Source: Adineta ricciae (lineage: Eukaryota > Rotifera > Eurotatoria > Adinetida > Adinetidae). Taken from it: a stretch of 64,000 bases of DNA. The translations under genes were made by a program, and so were the position numbers. The stretch spans positions 620,001 through 684,000 of the forward strand of contig CAJNOJ010000001.1 in assembly GCA_905250025.1 (NCBI GenBank), in the 5' to 3' direction. The notes beneath the pieces were generated by a model, which was given only the letters and a program-made list of their open reading frames with translations, searched no databases and had not been told where the DNA came from. Positions 3,356-60,769 of the stretch are shown here, one piece after another (position 1 is the first letter of the stretch; each line of letters opens with the position of its first letter).

Positions 3356-4565
3356 ATTTTCTATGTATCGCCAATAGACAGAGTCACAGGTATTTGTACT
3401 TTGATTTTCAACTACAACATGCACTCAATGTGCAATGTGCAGACAGAACGAGCGTTCTTTGCGACGGTCGAAATTTATTTCTACTGAAACGAAGAGAACG
3501 GTATTGATGAGAGCCTATTTGATTATATTTGAAAGTAAAGGTAAATATTATTGGTATATTAATACGCCGTCCATAGGGGACGTACTCATCATTACAACGC
3601 AATTAAACAGGTACTCGCTTCTTTTAGCACAAATAGTCACCCGTTGCGTATGCATCGGCGGGCCGGCAAAAAAATTTCAGGGGAGGCAATAAAAAATTTT
3701 TCAGTTATTATTACCACAGATATTCGTTTTTTCTGTGGCGAAAAAAATTTACTGCCCTTTCAAAAATTTTTCAGGGGGGGGGGGGGCAATTCCCCCCCTC
3801 GCCCCCCTCTGGCCCGCCGATGTGCGTATGAATACGGTCATTTCCAATAATGCAACCGTCTCTGGTTCGGTGTATTGATGAATAATACCGACTTATTTCA
3901 AAGTTCGGTTCCTGAATTTGATAAAACTTTATCTTTTTACAAATGTGTTGGTTTCTGTTGATATGATAACATCAACTATTATTCTTGAAGAATATACGTT
4001 TTTTAATTACTTTCATTCTGTCAATATGAACGAAAATATTTATCTTTATTTGATTGTAACAACAAATAAGACAGAAAAACAGTAATTTTCTCTCTCTCTA
4101 AGCTACTGCATTATTCCATTCTATCCGTTTCTCTCCTTTTCTCATCTCACCACCACATTCTCAAGCACATTGACGAAGAGAAAAACGGTACATCCGCATG
4201 AGTTATACAACACCCCAATTCGACGTCAATCGGTAGTGGAAAAACGACGCCCACTGATTCTCTTTTCTATATACAGCAATATCCTCTAGGAGGAAATATT
4301 TTTTCTTCGTGTATGTTGGCGTATCTGTCTACTCTGTGTGTATGGTAGAAAAATGTCCATATAGAATAAAAGATCAGAAAAGGTTCTTTCTTTCTTTGTA
4401 AGACGAGTGGTTGATTCTTCTGTTTTTGTGATTCCTTGCTGTTATTACTACTATCATCTTAGTCTTTACCATCACATATATATCGTTTACTCGACAAGAG
4501 AAATTTCTGTCCATGATTCGAAAACTCGTTGAACTCAATTTTGAATGCAATTAACTACAGTCTTC
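3356..4565. other. Divergent promoter region with an inserted MITE
   Basis: Lies between the mpaB-type gene (minus) and the ankyrin gene (plus). It contains the MITE at 3653-3822. The rest, about 3830-4544, is AT-rich with a CT-rich patch near 4088-4145 and shows no coding exon. Confidence 0.6.
3653..3822. mobile_element. 170-bp MITE, hAT-like, with intact 8-bp target site duplication
   Basis: Perfect 12-bp terminal inverted repeats CATCGGCGGGCC (3653-3664) and GGCCCGCCGATG (3811-3822) are flanked by the direct repeat TGCGTATG at 3645-3652 and 3823-3830. An 8-bp duplication is typical of hAT (and P) transposases. The interior has no ORF but contains a central palindrome CCACAGA..TCTGTGG (3714-3720 and 3732-3738). 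Near each end is a related motif, AATTTTTCAGGGG or similar, running into GGCAAT, and there is a 13-G run at about 3774-3786. It is GC-rich at its ends, unlike its surroundings. Identical duplications imply a recent insertion. The superfamily call rests only on duplication length and the CA start of the ends. Confidence 0.8.
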
Positions 4566-44516: not shown

Positions 44517-45619
44517 TTAAGCCCAACGTCCAACGACAGACATGGCTGCAACACCTGCATATAATGCGACAAAGTACAGGAATTTCAAGCGTTTTCTTAA
44601 TTTATGAAATGCATGAGCACCAACACCCATTTCTGCTGTGATCAAATTAACCAAGGCCACATAAATAAGGATGCCGGCTGATATCGAATCGAGAATTCCA
44701 TTGACAAGTAATGAAGCAACTGATTTTGGATTATATGTCTTTGTATGAATACCAATGCCGATGGCAATTCCAATCGGCGTTGTTAAAGCAAAAAATATGA
44801 CCATGAAACTGGCAGATTTCCAAGAGACATGTTCTAAACGAGCAATCTGCGCACCAAGTGCAATGGCTTCAAAAAACTGATGAAAACTAAGTGCGATAAA
44901 TAGAGCAACAAACGAATCCGTCGTCGAGCCCAATGTTAAACCGATCAGAACCGAATGAAGAGCTATGCCAAATTCGAGTAAATATGTACTTATTTTATGT
45001 TTTTGAGCATCATCTTGGAAAGTAATCCCATGACAATGATGATTTGCATCTGGTATCTCCACATTTGACGTTACAACATCGATGACGGACACTTTAATCT
45101 CTTCCTGGCCTTGCCTTTCAGATTCTTCAATTGTTGGATGAGTTTTAGACGCCGTCAATGATTGATAACGTTGATGAGCAACGAATTCGATGAATTGCAT
45201 GATTAACGCTGCTATCATAGCAAAAAGACCACCGTAAGCGCTGTAAACATTCCATGAATCAGGAAGACAAGGGTCATTTAAGAATTTCATTCCACCTGGT
45301 AGCATATGGATAAAACCCGTTGCTAGCACGATTCTACAAGATAAAATTTCCAATTGAGAAATTTTTTTAGTGAACGATGTTAGCTGTTATCGACATACCC
45401 ACTACCGAAAAATTTGCCGGTGTTGATAATGATCGGATTAATATGTAAACATTTGACTCGTGTGGAGACCACAGAAATTGCAGCGCCAAGAAAAGATACA
45501 ATCAATAGAACAAAAACGGATACAATACGAATGGTTAAATTATATGTATCATTAATTTCTTCATCTGTCACTAGGCATTCATTGTCTTCCAGTGTGGGGT
45601 CATGTCGGGTTGTAAACAT
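44517..45619 (-). CDS. ZIP-family zinc/iron transporter (SLC39A)
   Basis: Two exons, 45399-45619 and 44517-45333, with a 65-bp phase-2 intron, give 345 residues. Eight hydrophobic segments are visible. Residues ~30-52 form helix 1, then KFFGSGIVLATGFIHMLPGG is helix 2 with its conserved histidine. The third helix is followed by a cytosolic loop of about 60 residues containing HHCHG, a metal-sensing type His-rich motif. Helix 4 has EFGIALHSVLIGLTLGS and helix 5 has ALSFHQFFEAIALGA; the H-S and HxxxE residues form the metal-binding centre. The pattern with D/N-rich DNECLV before helix 1 and a VGRWA end fits the ZIP I group of fungi, plants and animals. It imports zinc (or iron) across the plasma or an organelle membrane. 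TTTATT at 44454-44459 is its polyadenylation signal. Confidence 0.93.
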
Positions 45620-46841
45620 CCTTCACAATTGTACTTTCGTTTTGTTTTGATTGCTACTGATATGGATAAGTAATGCTTCACTTTTTCTCTTTCGATAACA
45701 GTTTATATTCTCTCTCTCTGTCGTCGGCCGATAGGCGGTGGTAGCTATATGAAAACACTTGTAAAACATTTCTTTTCTTTTACATGTCTGACTATCTCTC
45801 TCTCTCTCACTCACATTTCTTTTTGTCTATATGACTACGCGAACGAATATGACACTAAAACATTCTTTCTAGGTGCTGTTAATATTATCATGTTATAAAA
45901 ACATCTCCTTTGCATAGCCAACTCTAATAAACGAAAACATTCCGCTTTTCCAAGCTCTAGCTATATGATCTTATTTTGAAGTGTTTTATAAGGGATGACG
46001 TCCATCAAAAACTAGTGTTTGCATTGAAATAAAAATCAAAGTAATATTATACAGTGTATTAGTTAAAGTTTAACTACTCGAATTTTGTGTACAGAATGGA
46101 AAAGCGTGGTATAGAGATGATACTCAAACGTGCATGTTTTATTATCATAAAATAAACAAAATATCAGCACTTGATAGATATCGATAAAAAAACACAAACG
46201 TTCACTCTTGGTTTTATTCCCATGCTCAGTTTGCCGATAAAAATAGAATTCTGCAACTAATAACTTGTGTACTGCTAATATGATCTAGTAATATTACTGA
46301 GATGATTAATAACTTTAGCAAAGAATGAAGATAAAGCTGTATAATTACTATTAAACTGTAAAAGCAAGAAAGGAAATTTGCCTGTTCCAGCTTATAAAAT
46401 ATTATAACATCAGCTTTAGGATTCATCTAATGTGTGTGGATCATTTATTGCAACACTTATAATGTGATTGATTTCTTTATAGTGAGTTCATTGAGTTATG
46501 ATATTGTTCGGTACACTCTTGCATTAAAATTCGTTTTTTCTCTTAAATTAAAGGTAAAACTTAGTTTCATCATTAAAACCTGATAGAATAATTAGCACAG
46601 TTCCTAAAGTTAGATACATTATTTTATTCTACTTTTTTTATTAGAGTAGCTTGTAGTATTTGACGAAACTAGTATATATGGAGTACATAGAAATTCTTTT
46701 TTATTTCCGATTGTTTCATCGAATATCATTATCTACACTTTAGCATGACATGTGTGAACAGCGTTTTCGTTTTGTTTTTCTCCTTCTCATTTTATTTTCT
46801 TGTTGTAGAGAAAAAGATAAATATAGCATAATATTTGAACA
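45620..46841. other. Intergenic, 1.2 kb (divergent promoters)
   Basis: Contains CT-rich tracts at 45710-45720 and 45796-45810 and an AT-rich remainder. Frames such as the one at 46226-46426 are hydrophobic by base composition only. No gene seen. Confidence 0.5.
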
Positions 46842-48679: not shown

Positions 48680-49661
48680 ATGCTATCCAAGCATACCCTT
48701 CTTGCCATCTTTTTGTACTGTATGTTATATCGCTGATAGAATGTCATAAAAATTCAATCACTTGAAACTTTATTCACTTTTAGTAGCCATAGTTCAACTA
48801 GACTTCTGCCGAGCAAAGATCTGCTATCAATGCGATGATAAAAATCCATCAAGTAAATTGAAATTCTACGGCGAAAAGATTACTAAATGTAATGGCGTTC
48901 CATTCGAAAAATATGCCTCGAAAACATCGAAAGCATTTGGTGCTGCTGTATTAACATGTTACACGGTAAAGTATACTATTCAAATTTATTGTTACACTTG
49001 CTATTTGATATATATGCGATAAATGAGTGATTTTCCGTAACTTGATTATATGAAGCCTGCTTTTTCAATATAAACTCTTTTGCAGAAATTCAATGAATCT
49101 GGTCACGTTATCAAACGAGGTGCTTTTGGTCTTGGCGAAACTTATGACAAAAATTTCAAATGTCGAGATCGTTTTCATATCTGCTGCAAAACAGCTTTCT
49201 GCAACAAACATACCAAAGCTCCATGTCCACCACCTGGTTCGTTTAAAGCTTTCCATCTTTTGATCATAGTATCGCGAAATACTTTTGTCAAAAATAGCTA
49301 AAATAACAACGAAGAAAGAAGTCAAAGCATGTTATCAATGCAAAGGTGCCGAAGCTTGCAAACCAGAAAAACTCGATGGACGTGAAATTCGTACATCTGG
49401 CGCTTTTGGCGGCAAGAACTTATACTGTTATACTGTAAGAAAAAAACAGAATTCTAGTCTCTGTTCAACCCGTTGAATACTATATTTTTTTCATCAAAAT
49501 AGAAATTCGATCCAAAGACAGGTGCTGCTGTTGCTCGTGGTGGCTTTGGATTTGGCGAAGCCTTGGATAAGAATCTCAAATGCGACGCCAAACACTATTT
49601 GTGTTGTTTTGAAAATTTATGTAACAATCAAACAGCTGGTTTCTGTGCTAAACCAAAATAA
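48680..49661 (+). CDS. Secreted protein with two Ly6/uPAR-type domains
   Basis: Five exons, 48680-48719, 48784-48965, 49086-49236, 49298-49434 and 49503-49661, total 669 nt and 222 residues (phases 1, 0, 1, 0). The first exon (MLSKHTLLAIFLY) joins LAIVQLDFCRA to form a signal peptide of about 25 residues. Two modules of roughly 90 residues follow. Each starts CYQC and has CYT shortly before its own intron, then a glycine-rich strand (RGAFGLGE or RGGFGFGE), then KC, and ends CCKTAFCN or CCFENLCN. CC-x4-CN is the closing signature of Ly6/uPAR (three-finger) domains. Introns are at matching positions in both modules, so the gene arose by internal duplication. No GPI-anchor tail is visible, so it is probably secreted. 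The ligand is unknown. AATAAA at 49754-49759. Confidence 0.83.
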
Positions 49662-51003
49662 AGGAACCGTTTAGAGAAAAGACTACCCTACATGTGTGCA
49701 TCCTGTTTGCTTGTGTGAACGATCTCTTATCTACATTATTCGTCTTATTTTCTAATAAACAATAAGTATAAAATCTGGAATAATGAAAAATATCAACACT
49801 TCCAAATGACATGTAAGAACGAATGAGGAAAGATACTGATGACAGTAACGACTATTATCGGATGTACTTCCCATGAAAAAAAAACAAGAGGACAGTATAA
49901 AGAGTGGGGTACTTCTCAGTAAATATCCGATATGAAATAGTTCCGATGCTAAGACTGTTGCTCCAAGCTTTTTTCATGTCAGAACGTTCTTGTTTATAGG
50001 AATGTCGGTTAGAAAGCATATGCACTCGAAATCAATGAATAATTCGTGTGAATAACGACCATTTATCACAATCGCAATATCTTTCAGTCAAACTAGATCT
50101 ATCCTTAGAAAAAGGATCATAGCTAGGTAGAACATAATCCATAAATAATGGCGTAGGATAAAATATATTTAGCCACTAACACTTTCCATACATGTTACAC
50201 ACAAAGATAGTTTTTGATGCATACGTAATTCATTACCCACCGTTATGAAATTTAGTCTGTTATATAGTCGACTATTTTTTTTATAGAAGTTATCATAGTC
50301 TAATAAAAAACGAATGACTTCATACGAAAAACTAATATATCCAGGAAGTACTTTTCCCTTCGATGATGATGAATACACCGATATTTTTAAACTTAGCTAT
50401 ATTTTTTAGATTGAAGCAAGTAAAGCATATAGCATCGATAATGAACAATAATATTGTTGAAATAAAACACTAACAGCTGATTTCTGATATGGCCAGTTCC
50501 CAACAATTGTTTCCTGTTTTGCGATAGACAAAACATTTACTTTCAAACAAGTTGTTTTTCGGTTGACACAATCTGGCTGCGATATAAATACGTGTCCTAG
50601 TGAACTAACAATGGAAAGAAATTGCCATGTTAGCTTTCTAGCAGTTTTGAGAATAGAGCCTCCGAGAAAAGCGAAAGTTATGTCTGTTCTTTTGATGAAC
50701 CATTCGGAGGATGTGAGAAGATGATGTTATTATGATACTTGTCAAGTAGAATGCTATTATAAAGAACACCAGACAATCTAATGTGATGGCCGCTTCACTG
50801 TTTTCTTTTATTTTCTTAAAGAAGGAGAAAAATTAGTCGTTATGATTGCTATTCATAAAGAAAAATATAGATTATTGAACGAGATTTGTATCCATATACA
50901 TTGCTGTCAACAGTTGGACGAGAAGAGAAAGAATGAAAAAGCAAAAACGACGACCAATCACCAAGGAAAAGATAGAGGGCTTTTTTTGTGCGAAGTATAT
51001 TTT
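49662..51003. other. Intergenic, 1.3 kb
   Basis: Lies between two converging genes. Apart from the AATAAA at 49754-49759 it is AT-rich with short random frames (for example 50169-50378 minus). No gene seen. Confidence 0.5.
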
Positions 51004-53242
51004 TCAAGGTAATGATTTTTCTCTTGGTGGTGATGTTGATGGTTGAGAATGATGAGCATTAGTTGGTGGTATAACTATTGATGAATCAGGCTCGCTGAAT
51101 AATGGATTGCGTACTTCCATCTCACCTGTCTGTAAATAGAAAAGGAAATGAACATGGCTTGTTAACTAGAGCGGAAAATGTCAACATACTGGAGCCAGGC
51201 CAGGACATTCGTAAACGGTATAATCTCCTCCTTCTGGAGCCTCATCATCAGAATCGTCCGAATTATTTGCTTTTGCATCGAGAAGATCTCTATTGAAGCA
51301 AAAATCATCCATGAATGACATTCTATTAATCAACTGCTATTCAATATACTTTTCTTGTGCCATCATTTGTTGACGTTGTTGTTGATAATGGAACATTTGT
51401 GCACTTTGAGCCAGTTTTCGATCCGACATGGTCGAACTTGGTGAAATCTTACCACCAGTTGCATTCGGTCCTGTGACCCCATATGATGGATATTCGACAT
51501 CAGCAGCTTCTTTTGCTTTCTTCTGAACTCTATTAAAAACAGACGAGCCTATATTATTATCTGAGAATTAATATTTATGAAACCATCTACGTTGTTTGAA
51601 TAAAAAATATTTGAGAATCAACTTAGAGAGTAATTGTTTTTTCAAAGTGAGAACAAAGTTTAAGTGACAATGCCTACGGCAGCGGTGATGGTGATAGCAG
51701 CAGAGTCATGACTTTTTTTGCGTTCTGCTATATCAGGAACATTCTTTCTCCTCCAATTGAACTCGTTCGTTCTCTAAGTTAATGCTACTATGGCTATTAA
51801 ACAAAGTTGCTTTTAGATTATTACTATATGGACTCGTATTCTTAACATAAATTGACAGTTGTCTTTATTTTCTGTGAAAATCTATCTAGCAATGACTTAC
51901 TTGTACCAAAACACTGTTGCCGCTAGAAGACCCACCACACCAATCATGCAACATGTTCCAACAATTACTAAAAAAAAAACAAATGAAAAGTCGATTCAAT
52001 ATGTACTCTAGTGTTTTATGTTTCGTTTGACACATGATTGTTGCTAATTAAAGAATTAGATGAGAATGAGACTGGTTTTCTTTTTAAAATCTAGGACTAT
52101 GCAGATAATCCTGACATAATAATTATCAACAAGTACTCGTGTTTTTATCATTTGATACACAATGAAAAACAAAGGTATTATCAAGAATCGAGTTTTCATC
52201 ATATCCTAAAAAAACTCTAGCATATGCTTCTCTACGGTCAAATTTCCGGCGAGTATTCTATGACACAATCAACTTTGTCGGATGTTGACAATTCGTCAAG
52301 CAGGCGATATTAAAAGTGCATATGTTTTCAATCTGACGTATTCTGAACTTTTTTCTTCGATCGAATAAAAGTTCAATTAACTGACATACATGTTGAGAAG
52401 AACTTACCGAAAAATAGTGTATCGTTGCGTCGTTGTTTTCGGTCTCTAGAGTTTAAAGCAGCATTCGATTGTAATCGTTCAGCGCGTCCATTGACACTGC
52501 CTCCGAGCCATGGTTCTTCCAAAATGTTCTCGTTATAGGTTTCTGATATTTTATTGAATAATTCGCCTCGTTCGCTATCATCAACCAATTTGTTTTCCAT
52601 CAACACATCTGATGGATACCGTTCACTTAACCCTTTGACACTTGCTAAACGCGAAAGCAATCGAACGTTTTTCTCATGAAATTTAACAAAAAGTTTTATC
52701 TTACCAGGTAAAAGTTCATTGACAGTTATTCGACGTTTCACTGCTGCTTCCTTATCTATCAATTCTTCCCAATCGAACGAATCGCCTCTTTCTATAAAAA
52801 GAAACAATGTAACACCATTAAAGATTAATTTCATTTCCATCCCAAAAAAGCAATAGTTTGCATTTCTGCTCTCATCGTAGATGAGCTTAAGTTAGAATGC
52901 TAGACTAAAGAAAAGAAAGTCGGCTCTTTGCTCTTTTCCGTTGAGTTTTCTAACATGCAACATGCATATCTTATTGCATTGTATTTTTTTCTCAAAAGCT
53001 TTTTTTTACGACATAAAGAATGTATTACTTTCAATTTCTTCTTGTTCCAGTGCCGATGTCGGTATGAATTCATCACTAATGGGTTTCTTTGGCGCTTCTC
53101 CTGGAAATTTTGCTGCTTGTTGTAAACGTTCTTTCGATGAATGTATTTTCGGTAGGGGAAGATAGAAGATACGCGAAGCGTCAATAGTTGTTGTCACAAC
53201 AAGGAGTACAAGAACTACATGATTACTCACAAACACTCTCAT
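51004..53242 (-). CDS. NPDC1: NPDC1 homolog (neural proliferation, differentiation and control protein)
   Basis: Six exons on the minus strand: 53029-53242, 52408-52791, 51901-51967, 51350-51529, 51190-51289 and 51004-51129. They total 1071 nt and 356 residues with phases 1, 1, 2, 2, 0. A signal peptide (SNHVVLVLLVVTTTIDA) starts it. The outer part is charged and low-complexity, including dibasic sites. One transmembrane helix is in exon 3 (IVGTCCMIGVVGLLAATVFW). The cytosolic part has the family's invariant blocks: ADVEYPSYGVTGP, RKLAQSAQMFHYQQQRQQMM, GDYTVYECPGLAPTGEMEVR and NPLF. These blocks are almost identical to vertebrate NPDC1 and to nematode CAB-1, which acts in neurons on vesicle or dense-core traffic. 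Introns of 371 and 440 bp are long for the window. The outer part is hard to align. Confidence 0.9.
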
Positions 53243-54985: not shown

Positions 54986-56540
54986 ATGTACTTTTTCAAT
55001 AGCCCTTTTCATCATCAGTTTTCACCGTCGATGCCTCATCGAAAAAGTATCTTCGAAGATCCACGTGAAGATCCTCTTGCTATCTTTCTTCTCCAAGTAT
55101 TTGCCACATTAATTCTATCGAAAATATTAGGCAAATGTTTGTCATTTATTCATCAACCAGCTGTCATTGGACAAATTCTAACTGGTATCATCCTAGGCCC
55201 AAGTGTATTAGGTTTCATACCTGGTTTCAGTTCATTTCTATTCGCTCCACACACCCTCAACTCACTTCAACTAGTAGCGTCATTAGGTTTGATATTTTTC
55301 ATGTTCTATCTTGGATTGAAAATGGATCCGAACGAAATTCGACAAGGATGGCGTCGAACATTACCTATTGCATCAGCCAGCATTATTATTCCAGTCAGTA
55401 TCGGATGTGCAACTAGCCTATGGCTATATAAAATGGCCGAGCCAAATATAAACAAACCGGCGTTTATTTTATTCATTGGTAGTACAAGATTTCATTTATA
55501 TCTGACAATTTTATTGATTATTCAGGTTCCGGAGTTGGCTTTTCGGCATTTCCAGTTTTAGCTTCGATTTTGCAAGCGAATAACATAATCACGACTTCAC
55601 TTGGTTAGTATTTGAAAAACAGAAAGGCTTCTTACTTTTCTATTGTTGTTTGATTGACCATTTTTTTGTCGTTTATCGAGGTGTGTTAACAATTAGTATC
55701 GCTGCAATTGAAGATATCGTCGTATGGGTCATATTAGCGATTGCAACGGCCTTAAGTAAAGGTGGTCCATCAATTGAAGGTCTCTACACTCTTCTCTTAA
55801 CTTTCGCCTTTCTTTTGATTATGTTTATCGTTGTTCGTCCATTGCTTTCGCTGGTACATCGTTATTACTTTCGTCGAAATGATGAACACAATATCTATTT
55901 GATTGTTTGTTGTATCTTGGTATTACTAGCAGCATCTTTCGTCAGTGAAGTGATTAATATTCACGCATTCTTTGGTGCTTTCGTAGCCGGGTTAATTATT
56001 CCGCGTAAAATGAAAGGTTCAAATTTACACGACTTTTTATCTGCTCAAATCGAACTATTATGCATTGAATTTTTTCTTCCACTCTACTTCACAAATTCGG
56101 GTTTGAAAACTCATTTTGCTATGTTGAATACAGTTCAAATATGGTATACAATATTGAGTTTAGTTGCGATCATTTCCATTGCTAAAATAATCCCAGTTAC
56201 ACTAATGACACGAATAGTAACACGAAAAGAACGAACATGGTCGTATGCTTTAGCTGTCGGCATTCTTATGAATACGCGTGGAATTGTTCAATTGGTTGTA
56301 CTCAACGTTGGTGTTGAACTAGGTGTTTTGTCACCTGTTATTTTTTCAATGTTTGTATTGACAGCTGTATTCTTGATATTTCTTACCTCGCCGTTACTCT
56401 ACCTGGTTTATCTACGAAAGAATGGCAAAGAAATAGCTTCGACTACAACGAATGTCTACAACAATCCAATGGAACGAGTCTCACATGATTACATGCGACA
56501 ACCGTCGAGAAAATGGAAAATTGCAAGATCAGCTTGTTGA
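54986..56540 (+). CDS. CPA2-type monovalent cation/proton antiporter
   Basis: Three exons, 54986-55478, 55526-55603 and 55681-56540, total 1431 nt and 476 residues (phases 1 and 1). A second ATG at 55031 is an alternative start. About 12 hydrophobic segments are present. The early motif QPAVIGQILTGIILGPSVLG is characteristic of CPA2 exchangers (KefB/C, plant CHX, fungal KHA1). GSGVGFSAFPVLASIL follows, then SIAAIEDIVVWVILAIATAL, where ED stands at the ion-binding acidic pair. LPLYFTNSGLKT and LAVGILMNTRGIVQLVVLN are further family marks. The cytosolic C-terminus is short; the long regulatory domain of bacterial KefC and plant CHX is missing. It would exchange K+ or Na+ for H+. CPA2 proteins of this type are uncommon in animals, so foreign origin is possible. 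AATAAA at 56699-56704. Confidence 0.87.
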
Positions 56541-56819
56541 TAATTATTGAATTTAATTCATAATAAGAAATATGTTAAGTTCGAATACATATTACCTCGT
56601 ATTTTCTTCGGGATACTTAATCAAATTTATTGCGATATCGATCATTGATGGAAAGTGAGTCAGGTCAACATGTACTGTGACGCTCGATCATTCTATTTAA
56701 TAAAAATCAACTATATTATGATTGATCATGGAATATTCTGTTGTTTCATTTCCATATGTTGTCAATAAAAAGTAATCACGGATATCCGCTTTCATTGTCG
56801 AAAGCGATGAGCATTTATT

Positions 56820-57353
56820 TCAAATGATTTTATAGATTTGAAATCCCTCTGATTGTATAGCTTGAATAATCACATCATCCTCAATGTGAACATGTGCAGT
56901 CACATCAGCTTGACCCATTTCGAGATCAACATGTGCATCGAGAATGCCATCGATTTTTCCAAATGCGCGAACTACAGTTGATCGACATGATTCACAATGC
57001 ATTCCTACGATTTTCCAATGTGTAATCATCATTTGATTATCATCACCTAATTGCACATTAGTTACTGATTCCTTTCTGAACATTTGAAATATTTCTGGTG
57101 ACAATGATAAGCATAAAGTTAACATTACCATCATTGTAAAATGAGTTTTCGATGGACGATAACGAATATATGAGTAAGTCAATGAAATAACAGTCAATGA
57201 AACGAATAAAGGTCGATAGGGAACAAGAAGAGTGTTCAGTCCCGCACACCCGATACCGAATAGATTGAGAAAAACTTGCAGAAAACAACATGGACAACAT
57301 AAAGATATGAGAAAGCCACCAAAAAGGCTATTAGCCCAACCGAAACGCATCAT
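56820..57353 (-). CDS. MerT-MerP-like fusion: mercuric-type transport protein with HMA domain
   Basis: Single exon, 177 residues. Residues 1-50 hold a membrane segment with cysteine pairs (LISLCCPCCFLQVFLNLFGI), followed by TLLVPYRPLFVSLTVISLTY, which parallels the LxPYRPxFIG region of bacterial MerT. A third membrane helix lies at about residues 70-88. Residues ~110-177 form a heavy-metal-associated domain with GMHCESCRSTVVRAF, the GMxCxxC metal site, and end FQIYKII. Bacterial MerT carries Hg(II) through the inner membrane and MerP binds it with the same GMTCxxC motif; fused MerTP forms are known in bacteria. Here the fusion is in a eukaryotic-looking region, between BCAS2 and the antiporter and 134 bp downstream of the former. 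No intron and the bacterial-type architecture suggest horizontal transfer. The metal could also be copper or another soft cation. Confidence 0.8.
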   Translation of the reverse strand: MMRFGWANSLFGGFLISLCCPCCFLQVFLNLFGIGCAGLNTLLVPYRPLFVSLTVISLTYSYIRYRPSKTHFTMMVMLTLCLSLSPEIFQMFRKESVTNVQLGDDNQMMITHWKIVGMHCESCRSTVVRAFGKIDGILDAHVDLEMGQADVTAHVHIEDDVIIQAIQSEGFQIYKII

Positions 57354-57487
57354 ACTACGTTTATCTACAATACAAATTGCCTAATTATACTTGATGAATG
57401 TTTTCAATCGAATTCTTTTTTTATTCAGAAGTGTTAACAGAAAAAAAAACAGAACATTTACAAAACAGATTAGGTTCTTTTCTATCA

Positions 57488-58543
57488 TCAATGTTCAGAT
57501 GTTGCAGCTCCATTTGTTTTTGGTTGTTTTCGTAAATTTGCAACTTCCTTTTCTAATTCCACGATCGCACATTCAATTTCATAGTTCTTGCCAACTAAAC
57601 CGACCCAACTAAAGATGGAAAAAGACAAATTTGTCATTCAAAAATATTGTTTCTTTTTTAAACATACGTTTGTTCAAGTGCGCTCAGCTTAGCTCCTGCG
57701 TGCGTTTGTTCATTTTTACGATTAAAGTTTATTTCCTGAATCTGTTTTCTAAAATCGAATCAAGGAAATTAGCAATGTAGAAAATGTTCTTCAACGATTT
57801 TTCCTACCGAAGTTCTAATAATTGTTTTTGTGCTTGTTCTAACATATTTTGTAAAGAAGTATTGTAGATTTTCCATGTATTTGCTCCGTAGTCCCACATC
57901 AATTCCAAATTCAGGATTCTGAAAAGAGAAGATTAATCGTTAAATTGATAAGAGATGTTTGATTACCGTGTCTGTTGATGTTCAAGTTGAGCATAGGAGT
58001 TTTCCACACATTCATTCCATGCTTGGAAATCTGTTTGTTTACCGGGTGGTGGTGTAGGCAATTCATAACTAAGAGAACACGAAAGCTAATAAAATTAGAA
58101 ACTTCAGAGTGAAGTATTCGCTGTGTTACCGTTTCATACTCAGCATTTCCATTGGTAAACGATTGGAAAGGCGTTCAAATTCTGTTTTCATGATGTCGGT
58201 CTATTCGATAATAAAATAAAATTTACATCTCTACGTGGATGAAAAACTAATCACCTCAAATTGATGGTATAGAGGTTGGCCCAGCTGTTCTAAATAATTT
58301 TTTGTCGGTTTATAACGACGTGTTTCATCTTCAACTAAACTAAGCGCCTAGAAATGAAACCAATTATTCAATTTCAATTAAAGAAAATGACTAGGATGAA
58401 CTCACAGCTTCACGCACACCGGCTTCCTCGTATCCGCCATCGTAATAAGGTAAAGCATCGACCACGACATCCGGTGGTGCTTGATGACCATGCGCAGGAT
58501 TGGAATGATGAAGTACTACGGCTGATGATGTCGAATGAGCCAT
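57488..58543 (-). CDS. BCAS2: Pre-mRNA-splicing factor SPF27 / BCAS2
   Basis: Seven exons on the minus strand: 58406-58543, 58255-58347, 58130-58200, 57967-58068, 57808-57918, 57668-57748 and 57488-57608. They total 717 nt and 238 residues with phases 0, 0, 2, 2, 2, 2. It follows vertebrate BCAS2 (225 residues) closely: [72 protein letters not shown], and [12 protein letters not shown] near the end. The C-terminal half is a coiled coil. BCAS2 is a core member of the PRP19/NTC complex, which activates the spliceosome. The first ~24 residues are a rotifer-specific Ser/His/Pro-rich extension. TTTATT at 57419-57424 is its polyadenylation signal. Introns are 48-60 bp. Confidence 0.97.
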
Positions 58544-60273: not shown

Positions 60274-60769
60274 ATGGCGACTATATGGTTAGAAGAACAA
60301 CGAGCACAGAATAAGTAGAAACAAACCGTAAAAATTTCCTTTTACGACATTCGTTTCCTCATTTTCAAAGTTTAACGGCATTTCAATCCAACAGTAACAA
60401 ACGCAAACGATCCGATTTGAATGAACTATCAAATAAGCGAAAAGCTTCTTCGAATTCAACAAGTAAAACTGAGAGCGACGATGAGGATGAACGTTTGACA
60501 CTTTCACCGCGAATTTGCCCCATCATCACAAAATCTTCGACTGCCAATCATCGATCAATACAATCGCTGGTATTTCGACTTCTATCCCGTTAATAATCTG
60601 TTTTTTTTTAAATGTATTTTAGAGTTCATTCAAATGCCAACTATGCCGTCGATGCTTGCGTAATAAAGATTTGTACATGGAACATATGATGCTTTGTGCC
60701 TTTCAACGACAAGCAGCAATTAAGATAGTGCGTGCTGGAAAAAACAAAACGAACATTTCCATTCGGTGA
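60274..60769 (+). CDS. Small basic protein with one C2HC-type zinc finger
   Basis: Proposed exons are 60274-60314, 60371-60569 and 60623-60769; they total 387 nt and 128 residues with phases 2 and 0. The last exon is the firmest. It carries KCQLCRRCLRNKDLYMEHMM followed by LC, that is C-x2-C-x12-H-x3-C, a C2HC zinc finger. The middle exon codes for a basic and acidic low-complexity stretch (SNKRKRSDLNELSNKRKASS, then SDDEDE), which looks like a nuclear localisation signal. The first exon (MATIWLEEQRAQN) depends on a GTAGAA donor and is less certain; an acceptor at 60394 is also possible. The protein may be nuclear and bind RNA, DNA or protein. No family name can be given. Intron sizes of 56 and 53 bp match neighbours. 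Confidence 0.55.

Follow-up and report, generated by a model that had tools for sequence, protein, structure and literature searches.

In bacteria, Hg(II) is described as passing along a relay of cysteine thiols, from Cys33 and Cys36 of MerP to Cys24 and Cys25 of MerT, then to Cys76 and Cys82 at the cytosolic face, and from there to MerA (PMC5715351). MerT (PF02411, as in Tn21 and Tn501) and MerP can be separate proteins, or they can be joined in one chain as in the MerTP fusion (NF033556), which we encountered here mainly in Bacteroidota. Both MerT and MerP have been described as weak in phylogenetic signal (PMC3466566).

Genes of non-metazoan type are a familiar feature of bdelloid rotifers, with transfer candidates making up 11.7–14.5% of genes when four bdelloids were first screened and 6.2–9.1% after a further test (PMC5916493). 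The tetraploidy of the group is reported to predate the split of the bdelloid families, with ohnologues characterised by high Ks and low collinearity (PMC5916493; see also PMC6264785), and many A. vaga foreign genes are found as quartets which were presumably acquired before tetraploidisation (PMC5916493). Among the four bdelloids A. ricciae has the highest GC and ohnologue Ks, with a mean ohnologue Ks of 1.267 compared to 0.61 in A. vaga (PMC5916493).

Here we describe a MerTP-like gene in A. ricciae. While non-metazoan genes in bdelloids are already known, what appears to be new is a MerTP gene in a bdelloid and one without the cytosolic cysteine loop: among the titles and abstract openings listed in literature searches there was no report of a MerTP gene, or of a loop-less one, in bdelloids or rotifers (this is no proof of absence). 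The gene extends the bacterial-type gene set of bdelloids to metal handling, and there is evidence both that it is very old and that selection on it has continued. Like Fpg, UVDE and AlkD in A. vaga (PMC6264785), it is a multi-copy nuclear gene of foreign type with a probable early acquisition, but it differs from them in being of metal-transporter type and in having had a functional element deleted.

A MerT–MerP-type gene among animal genes

The window analysed here is the whole 64,000-nucleotide stretch C1:620001–684000 of the A. ricciae assembly (130.46 Mb in 1033 contigs), and positions given without a contig name refer to it. The first-pass annotation had read the gene at 56820–57353 as an intronless fusion of MerT-like and MerP-like parts carrying CC pairs, PYRPLFV and GMHCESC, placed next to an intron-bearing BCAS2 gene and an antiporter and so embedded in nuclear DNA, and this reading held. 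The 177-residue frame is uninterrupted and encodes the MerT part followed by the HMA part, and all of the named motifs are present. The BCAS2 gene (whose stop ends at 57488) has several introns by our reading of the sequence and the antiporter has at least two exons; these intron-bearing neighbours, together with a diverged copy in a collinear block on another contig (C13), place the gene in animal nuclear DNA (see Table 1 for feature coordinates). The neighbourhood thus differs from that of the Adhaeribacter plasmid fusion, which lies beside ArsR-type and P-type ATPase genes.

Table 1. Features of the MerTP-like locus in the window and their collinear partners on C13.
Feature	Position	Strand	Partner on C13	Basis or remark
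ZIP-family metal transporter	44520..45622	-	~523883-525185	Pfam
Unnamed small cysteine-rich gene	48750..49671	+	~528072-528898	One exon: no Pfam match
NPDC1-like gene	51097..53182	-	~530054-531900	Pfam
Na/H exchanger-type antiporter, at least two exons	54986..56540	+	No match in examined block	Multi-copy family
AATAAA right after the MerTP stop codon, possible poly(A) signal	56814..56819	-		Reading of sequence
MerTP-like gene	56820..57353	-	533852-534364 (-)	177 aa, no intron in coding frame, ATG to TGA
HMA (MerP/CopZ-type) domain, residues 115-171	56841..57011	-		Pfam
CESC metal-binding motif, residues 120-123 (in GMHCESC, 117-123)	56985..56996	-
Shortened TM2-TM3 loop RYRPSKTHF, residues 64-72, without Cys	57138..57164	-
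PYRP motif, residues 45-48 (within PYRPLFV, 45-51)	57210..57221	-		Common to many bacterial MerT rows
Helix-1 cysteines CCPCC, residues 19-23 (SLCCPCC; Cys 19, 20, 22, 23)	57285..57299	-
AG 11 nt upstream of the MerTP ATG, candidate acceptor for trans- or cis-splicing	57365..57366	-		Suggested by sequence
BCAS2 gene with introns	57488..58543	-		Pfam PF05700, E 6.5e-74 on hand-spliced protein
Zinc-finger-like exon (PF00096 below cut-off)	60623..60766	+	537370-537492

The domain order, MerT part and then HMA/MerP part in one chain, is the same in the window copy and in the C13 copy. The HMA domains score above the curated cut-off of 24.8 bits and retain the CxxC motif (44.9 bits, E 1.5e-11, with CESC in the window copy, and 48.6 bits with CEGC in the C13 copy), while the MerT match (residues 13–69 of the window protein, E 2.8e-5) falls below the gathering score of 32.9 bits in both (24.6 and 30.9 bits as proteins, 26.3 and 32.1 bits in the genome search). 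MerTP_fusion (NF033556) is the top NCBIfam match of the window protein, with 48.6 bits (58.2 bits for the C13 copy) against a cut-off of 180 which was easily passed by our positive control, L010, with 288.5 bits. As neither the scores nor the loop cysteines (see below) agree with those of the family, we regard the rotifer gene as a variant of the MerTP kind and not as a member.

The GC content of the gene (0.363) is host-like, compared to 0.353 for the window as a whole, which varies between 0.33 and 0.37 along its length. Two short direct repeat families and one 21-nt inverted pair (81%) were found at the gene, none of which we read as an insertion scar. Further copies of the window antiporter family were seen on C33, C50, C27, C293, C88, C57 and C1.

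Likeness to bacterial MerT and the missing cysteine loop

When the MerT parts of both rotifer copies were compared by hhalign with a ten-row bacterial MerT alignment, the match was given a probability of 97.2% (E 4.5e-11), with the CC pair and PYRP in register and the first two helices spaced as in the bacterial proteins. Against the bacterial MerT model the two parts scored 28.7 and 43.9 bits, compared to a best score of 15.0 bits amongst shuffled sequences (1000 per copy, 1914 of the 2000 producing a score). Among the bacterial MerT parts, that of L022 scored highest against the window copy, with 29.9 bits.

A profile built from the rotifer copies alone produced no confirmed locus, either among 46 candidate stretches from the collection of bacterial and archaeal genomes or among 21 from viral contigs. 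A mixed profile gave 46 confirmed loci from 183 candidate stretches, the full-length ones being mostly Bacteroidota MerTP fusions with 22–28% identity (24–29% in a second comparison), and bacterial fusions with the same domain order match the rotifer proteins near full length at about 22–29% identity. With the ten-row profile, 182 of 392 genomes of the Planctomycetota-labelled phylum matched at E ≤ 1e-8, many by the HMA part only, and among the matches listed 44 in 39 genomes ran from position 11 or earlier to position 191 or later. For the Pseudomonadota-labelled phylum, 17 of 398 genomes matched at ≤ 1e-20, and as each of the 17 listed matches crosses a stop, these are most simply separate merT and merP genes.

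The 79 bacterial rows used for alignment came from 31 of the 46 mixed-profile loci, 16 of the 17 Pseudomonadota-labelled loci, all 30 loci of the Planctomycetota-labelled survey and two of four plasmid loci (L007 and L008); 15 mixed-profile loci without a full-length row and the Pseudomonadota-labelled L156 were left out, and for L046 the row used comes from a different gene of the locus, not the one matched initially. A phylogenetic analysis (81 rows, 78 different) grouped the two rotifer copies together (SH-aLRT 99), the stem of their clade measuring 2.49 changes per column. This clade adjoins 30 Bacteroidota-type rows, which include one from Campylobacterota and two from Ignavibacteriota, with an SH-aLRT of 81, and it should be noted that long-branch joining and an odd letter make-up were both flagged for this position. 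With identities of only 22–29% and a long stem subject to this warning, neither the donor nor even the direction of transfer is proven by the phylogeny.

The rotifer and bacterial proteins differ between the second and third helices. All 79 bacterial rows have a TM2–TM3 stretch of 22–50 residues with at least two cysteines (including the loop pair of all 16 Pseudomonadota-labelled rows), whereas in each rotifer copy the stretch is nine residues long and free of cysteine. The helix-1 CC pair is found in all 79 bacterial rows and both rotifer copies, and the HMA CxxC in 75 bacterial rows and both rotifer copies, with the remaining four rows having an in-frame TGA at the second cysteine. The rotifer proteins therefore share with the bacterial fusions the MerT-like helices followed by MerP/HMA, the CC pair of TM1, an xRP motif and the HMA CxxC, and with separately encoded MerT the helix-1 CC and the RP region after it. 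Three Planctomycetota-labelled MerT–HMA fusions, L015, L022 and L024, also have the YRP motifs but retain the cysteine-bearing loop and carry TGA at the second HMA cysteine. We note that these three, which come from MAGs (near 3884–4549), are probable selenoproteins with the in-frame TGA in GMTCYGU, and that L022 also scores well below the family cut-offs (99.4 against 180 for MerTP and 60.8 against 375 for NF045683).

Set against the bacterial relay, the rotifer protein keeps the first two stations and has lost the third, and the missing cytosolic cysteine pair could mean that transport has been lost. Because the membrane CC and the HMA domain have been kept while the cytosolic pair was dropped, both copies provide a natural experiment on MerT in which it can be asked whether the cytosolic loop exists only to feed MerA.

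A second copy and the origin of the gene

Only two places in the 130 Mb assembly match the MerT model at E ≤ 0.001, the window gene and its C13 paralogue, which share 52% protein identity. The C13 copy lies 143 bases downstream of the stop of a same-strand RRM gene (Pfam RRM_1) which we take to be RNPC3. For BCAS2, as for the RRM gene, the genome contains a single clear locus along with one weak match (on C5, E 0.009, 24% identity, and on C39, E 2.9e-6, 38%, respectively). The helix-1 cysteines are CCPCC in the window copy compared to a single CC in the C13 copy, and it looks as if a tandem duplication or insertion of nine bases has doubled the pair in the former. An earlier in-frame ATG in the C13 copy would add 28 mostly hydrophobic residues (L001 1702–1785, minus strand), and this N-terminal extension may instead be intercistronic sequence.

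We compared 18.9 kb of C13 (in two pieces) with 204 kb of C1 and found five features in identical order and on identical strands between C1:664.5–680.7 kb and C13:523.9–537.5 kb: the ZIP transporter, the unnamed small gene, the NPDC1-like gene, MerTP and the zinc-finger-like exon, with nucleotide identities of 67–81% in the matching pieces. The intervening genes are not the same (the antiporter and BCAS2 on C1, the RRM gene on C13), a pattern that gene loss in a degenerate tetraploid would lead one to expect. The ZIP metal transporter is located about 11 kb from MerTP in the window and about 9 kb from it on C13.

The NG86 dS of the MerTP copies is 1.17 (167 codons) to 1.22 (172 codons), and values for two of the block neighbours are similar (1.22 for the NPDC1 exon over 68 codons and 1.30 for the unnamed gene over 67 codons), all near the published A. 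ricciae ohnologue mean. The MerTP copies are thus most likely ohnologues from the bdelloid tetraploidy, although an equally old segmental duplication is a possible alternative source of the block, 19 kb of C13 having been compared. If the copies are ohnologues the block would date to the tetraploidy, but it is not tightly dated: in the ZIP genes dS is 2.15 over one exon (276 codons) and saturated over another, and the agreeing neighbours provide only 67–68 codons each. Two NG86 computations gave a dN/dS of 0.29–0.30 for the MerTP copies, so on average over the ORF they have been under purifying selection.

Since the diverged copies lie in collinear blocks, the gene must have been in animal DNA before they parted. 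Contamination and recent transfer are thereby excluded, and two separate transfers were likewise rejected, given the collinearity of the blocks and the monophyly of the rotifer copies. Bacterial contamination, which the first-pass annotation had raised as a possible undoing of its own reading, and misassembly can be practically dismissed: although a bacterial-looking stretch does exist elsewhere in the assembly (on C199), the MerTP copies are on contigs of 1.70 and 0.88 Mb with intron-bearing animal neighbours and host-like GC, and contamination is excluded at the level of the assembly. It is also very improbable that an HMA domain native to the animal was fused with some unrelated hydrophobic segment and came to resemble MerT by convergence. 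HMA domains are widespread (found in 14 of 14 control genomes), the MerT scores are below the curated cut-offs, and a PDB search with the HMA domain was headed by copper-transporting ATPase 2 when repeats were summed (60.5 bits, with 14.8 for the best single repeat), but the MerT part taken alone gives the hhalign match, with CC and PYRP in register, and scores above all shuffles. When the HMA domain was compared alone, host HMA exons reached at most 18.5 bits for the C1 copy and 30.9 for the C13 copy, below the best of both the bacterial MerTP rows (up to 31.1 and 38.4) and other bacterial or archaeal HMA proteins (up to 41.6 and 40.3), though this comparison is weak, and biased as the bacterial loci were picked by similarity. 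The suggestion that the closest relatives might be animal HMA proteins does not hold for the membrane part, whose match is to bacterial MerT; for the HMA part the bacterial sets outscore the host exons in this biased sample while copper ATPases lead in the PDB.

It is harder to set aside an old animal family, in which the fusion was present in animals well before the bdelloids, through an older transfer or loss elsewhere, and was simply inherited. The very long stem and the low identity to all bacteria compared suit great age, and the gene predates the duplication of the block, but bdelloids often take up non-metazoan genes (PMC5916493) and we consider inheritance of this kind unlikely. Horizontal transfer, as first proposed, is the best explanation of a MerT part which matches bacterial MerT, near full-length matches to bacterial fusions and a gene in animal DNA; calling this unusual for a metazoan overstates the case for a bdelloid, where bacterial genes are common. 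A bacterial origin is strongly suggested, and an ancient transfer is very probable. A MerT–MerP fusion would have been acquired from bacteria by a bdelloid ancestor, before the tetraploidisation which preceded the split of the families. Two ohnologues of it would then have been retained, diverging from each other, and adapted to a setting in which the other mer components are missing. Taken as a whole, ancient bacterial acquisition, retention as ohnologues and a role in metal handling make up the best explanation, and one we favour by a little over an even chance.

The C199 stretch itself (about 118061–118234, L081) is bacterial-looking, with a locus GC of 0.45 and several intronless ORFs, among them a long one in which the N-terminus of an HMA-type P-ATPase was recognised by eye; it may represent contamination or another transfer.

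Possible function and expression

Hydropathy supports helices 1 and 3, with helix 2 of the rotifer copies below threshold on its own. The turn joining helices 2 and 3 contains R64, R66 and K69, and as the positive-inside rule places a positively charged turn in the cytosol, hydropathy and charge together suggest a topology in which the TM2–TM3 turn is cytosolic and the HMA domain is on the other side. In the mechanism we propose, three short helices would cross an animal membrane so that the RYRPSK turn faces the cytosol while the HMA domain projects to the exterior or into a lumen. A soft metal such as Cu+ or Hg2+ would be captured by the HMA CxxC and handed to the helix-1 CC pair, which would pass it across the membrane, and as the cytosolic cysteine relay towards MerA is absent, glutathione or a host metallochaperone might receive it there. 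We give this mechanism somewhat less than an even chance. The metal, the direction of transport and transcription are what we infer from sequence, and copper is as plausible as mercury since, among solved structures, the HMA domain has its relatives in copper ATPases, CopZ chaperones and the N-terminal domain of MerA.

The main rival to this mechanism, compatible with transfer, is that the protein is a membrane-tethered trap that binds soft metals through CC and CxxC without transporting them. Both the disappearance of the relay-completing loop pair from the two copies and the doubled CC pair of the window copy would suit a trap, but the helix-1 CC and PYRP have been kept, as has the way in which the first two helices are spaced, none of which a mere trap would need, and the average dN/dS over the ORF is about 0.3; we think the trap a rather doubtful alternative. 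The protein is most likely to be a domesticated soft-metal importer or binder that would work without MerA.

The position of both copies may have a bearing on how they are expressed. In the window, 134 bases separate the stop of BCAS2 from the MerTP ATG on the same strand, with AATAAA at 57420–57425, and in the C13 copy an acceptor-like TTGCAG lies 12 nt before the ATG. The same spliced leader has been described from two bdelloids of different families, where it is added to more than half of transcripts, with none found in one monogonont (PMC1925144), and the rotifer exon sequence has been published (Table 1 of PMC3795323). Searching the 130-Mb genome for this exon followed by a GT donor with up to three mismatches allowed gave 44 places with one or two mismatches (41 with one, at the first base, and three with a second), with no exact match to the published exon and none to the reversed pattern used as a control. 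These leader matches make the genome almost certainly that of a bdelloid, and the GC of the window and the divergence of the duplicates fit A. ricciae. Given spliced-leader genes in the genome, the acceptor-like AG and the spacing of 134–143 bases, it is possible that MerTP is trans-spliced as a downstream cistron. This spacing behind same-strand host genes suggests a route by which foreign genes might gain expression in a trans-splicing animal; both of the host genes, BCAS2 and the presumed RNPC3, are splicing factors.

A more far-reaching proposal, which we offer tentatively and consider less likely than the mechanism above, is that the bacterial mercury-transporter family has an animal branch in bdelloids, which would operate with no mercuric reductase and with the cytosolic thiol relay deleted, in which one ohnologue has a doubled CC and expression may be as spliced-leader downstream cistrons about 140 bases behind same-strand genes. 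If so, it would be a device for soft-metal import or defence that is new to animals.

Finally, we note that many of the spliced-leader matches occur as divergent pairs (minus and then plus strand), mostly about 155 bases apart with some at 370–470, on C6, C8, C43, C77, C99 and other contigs.
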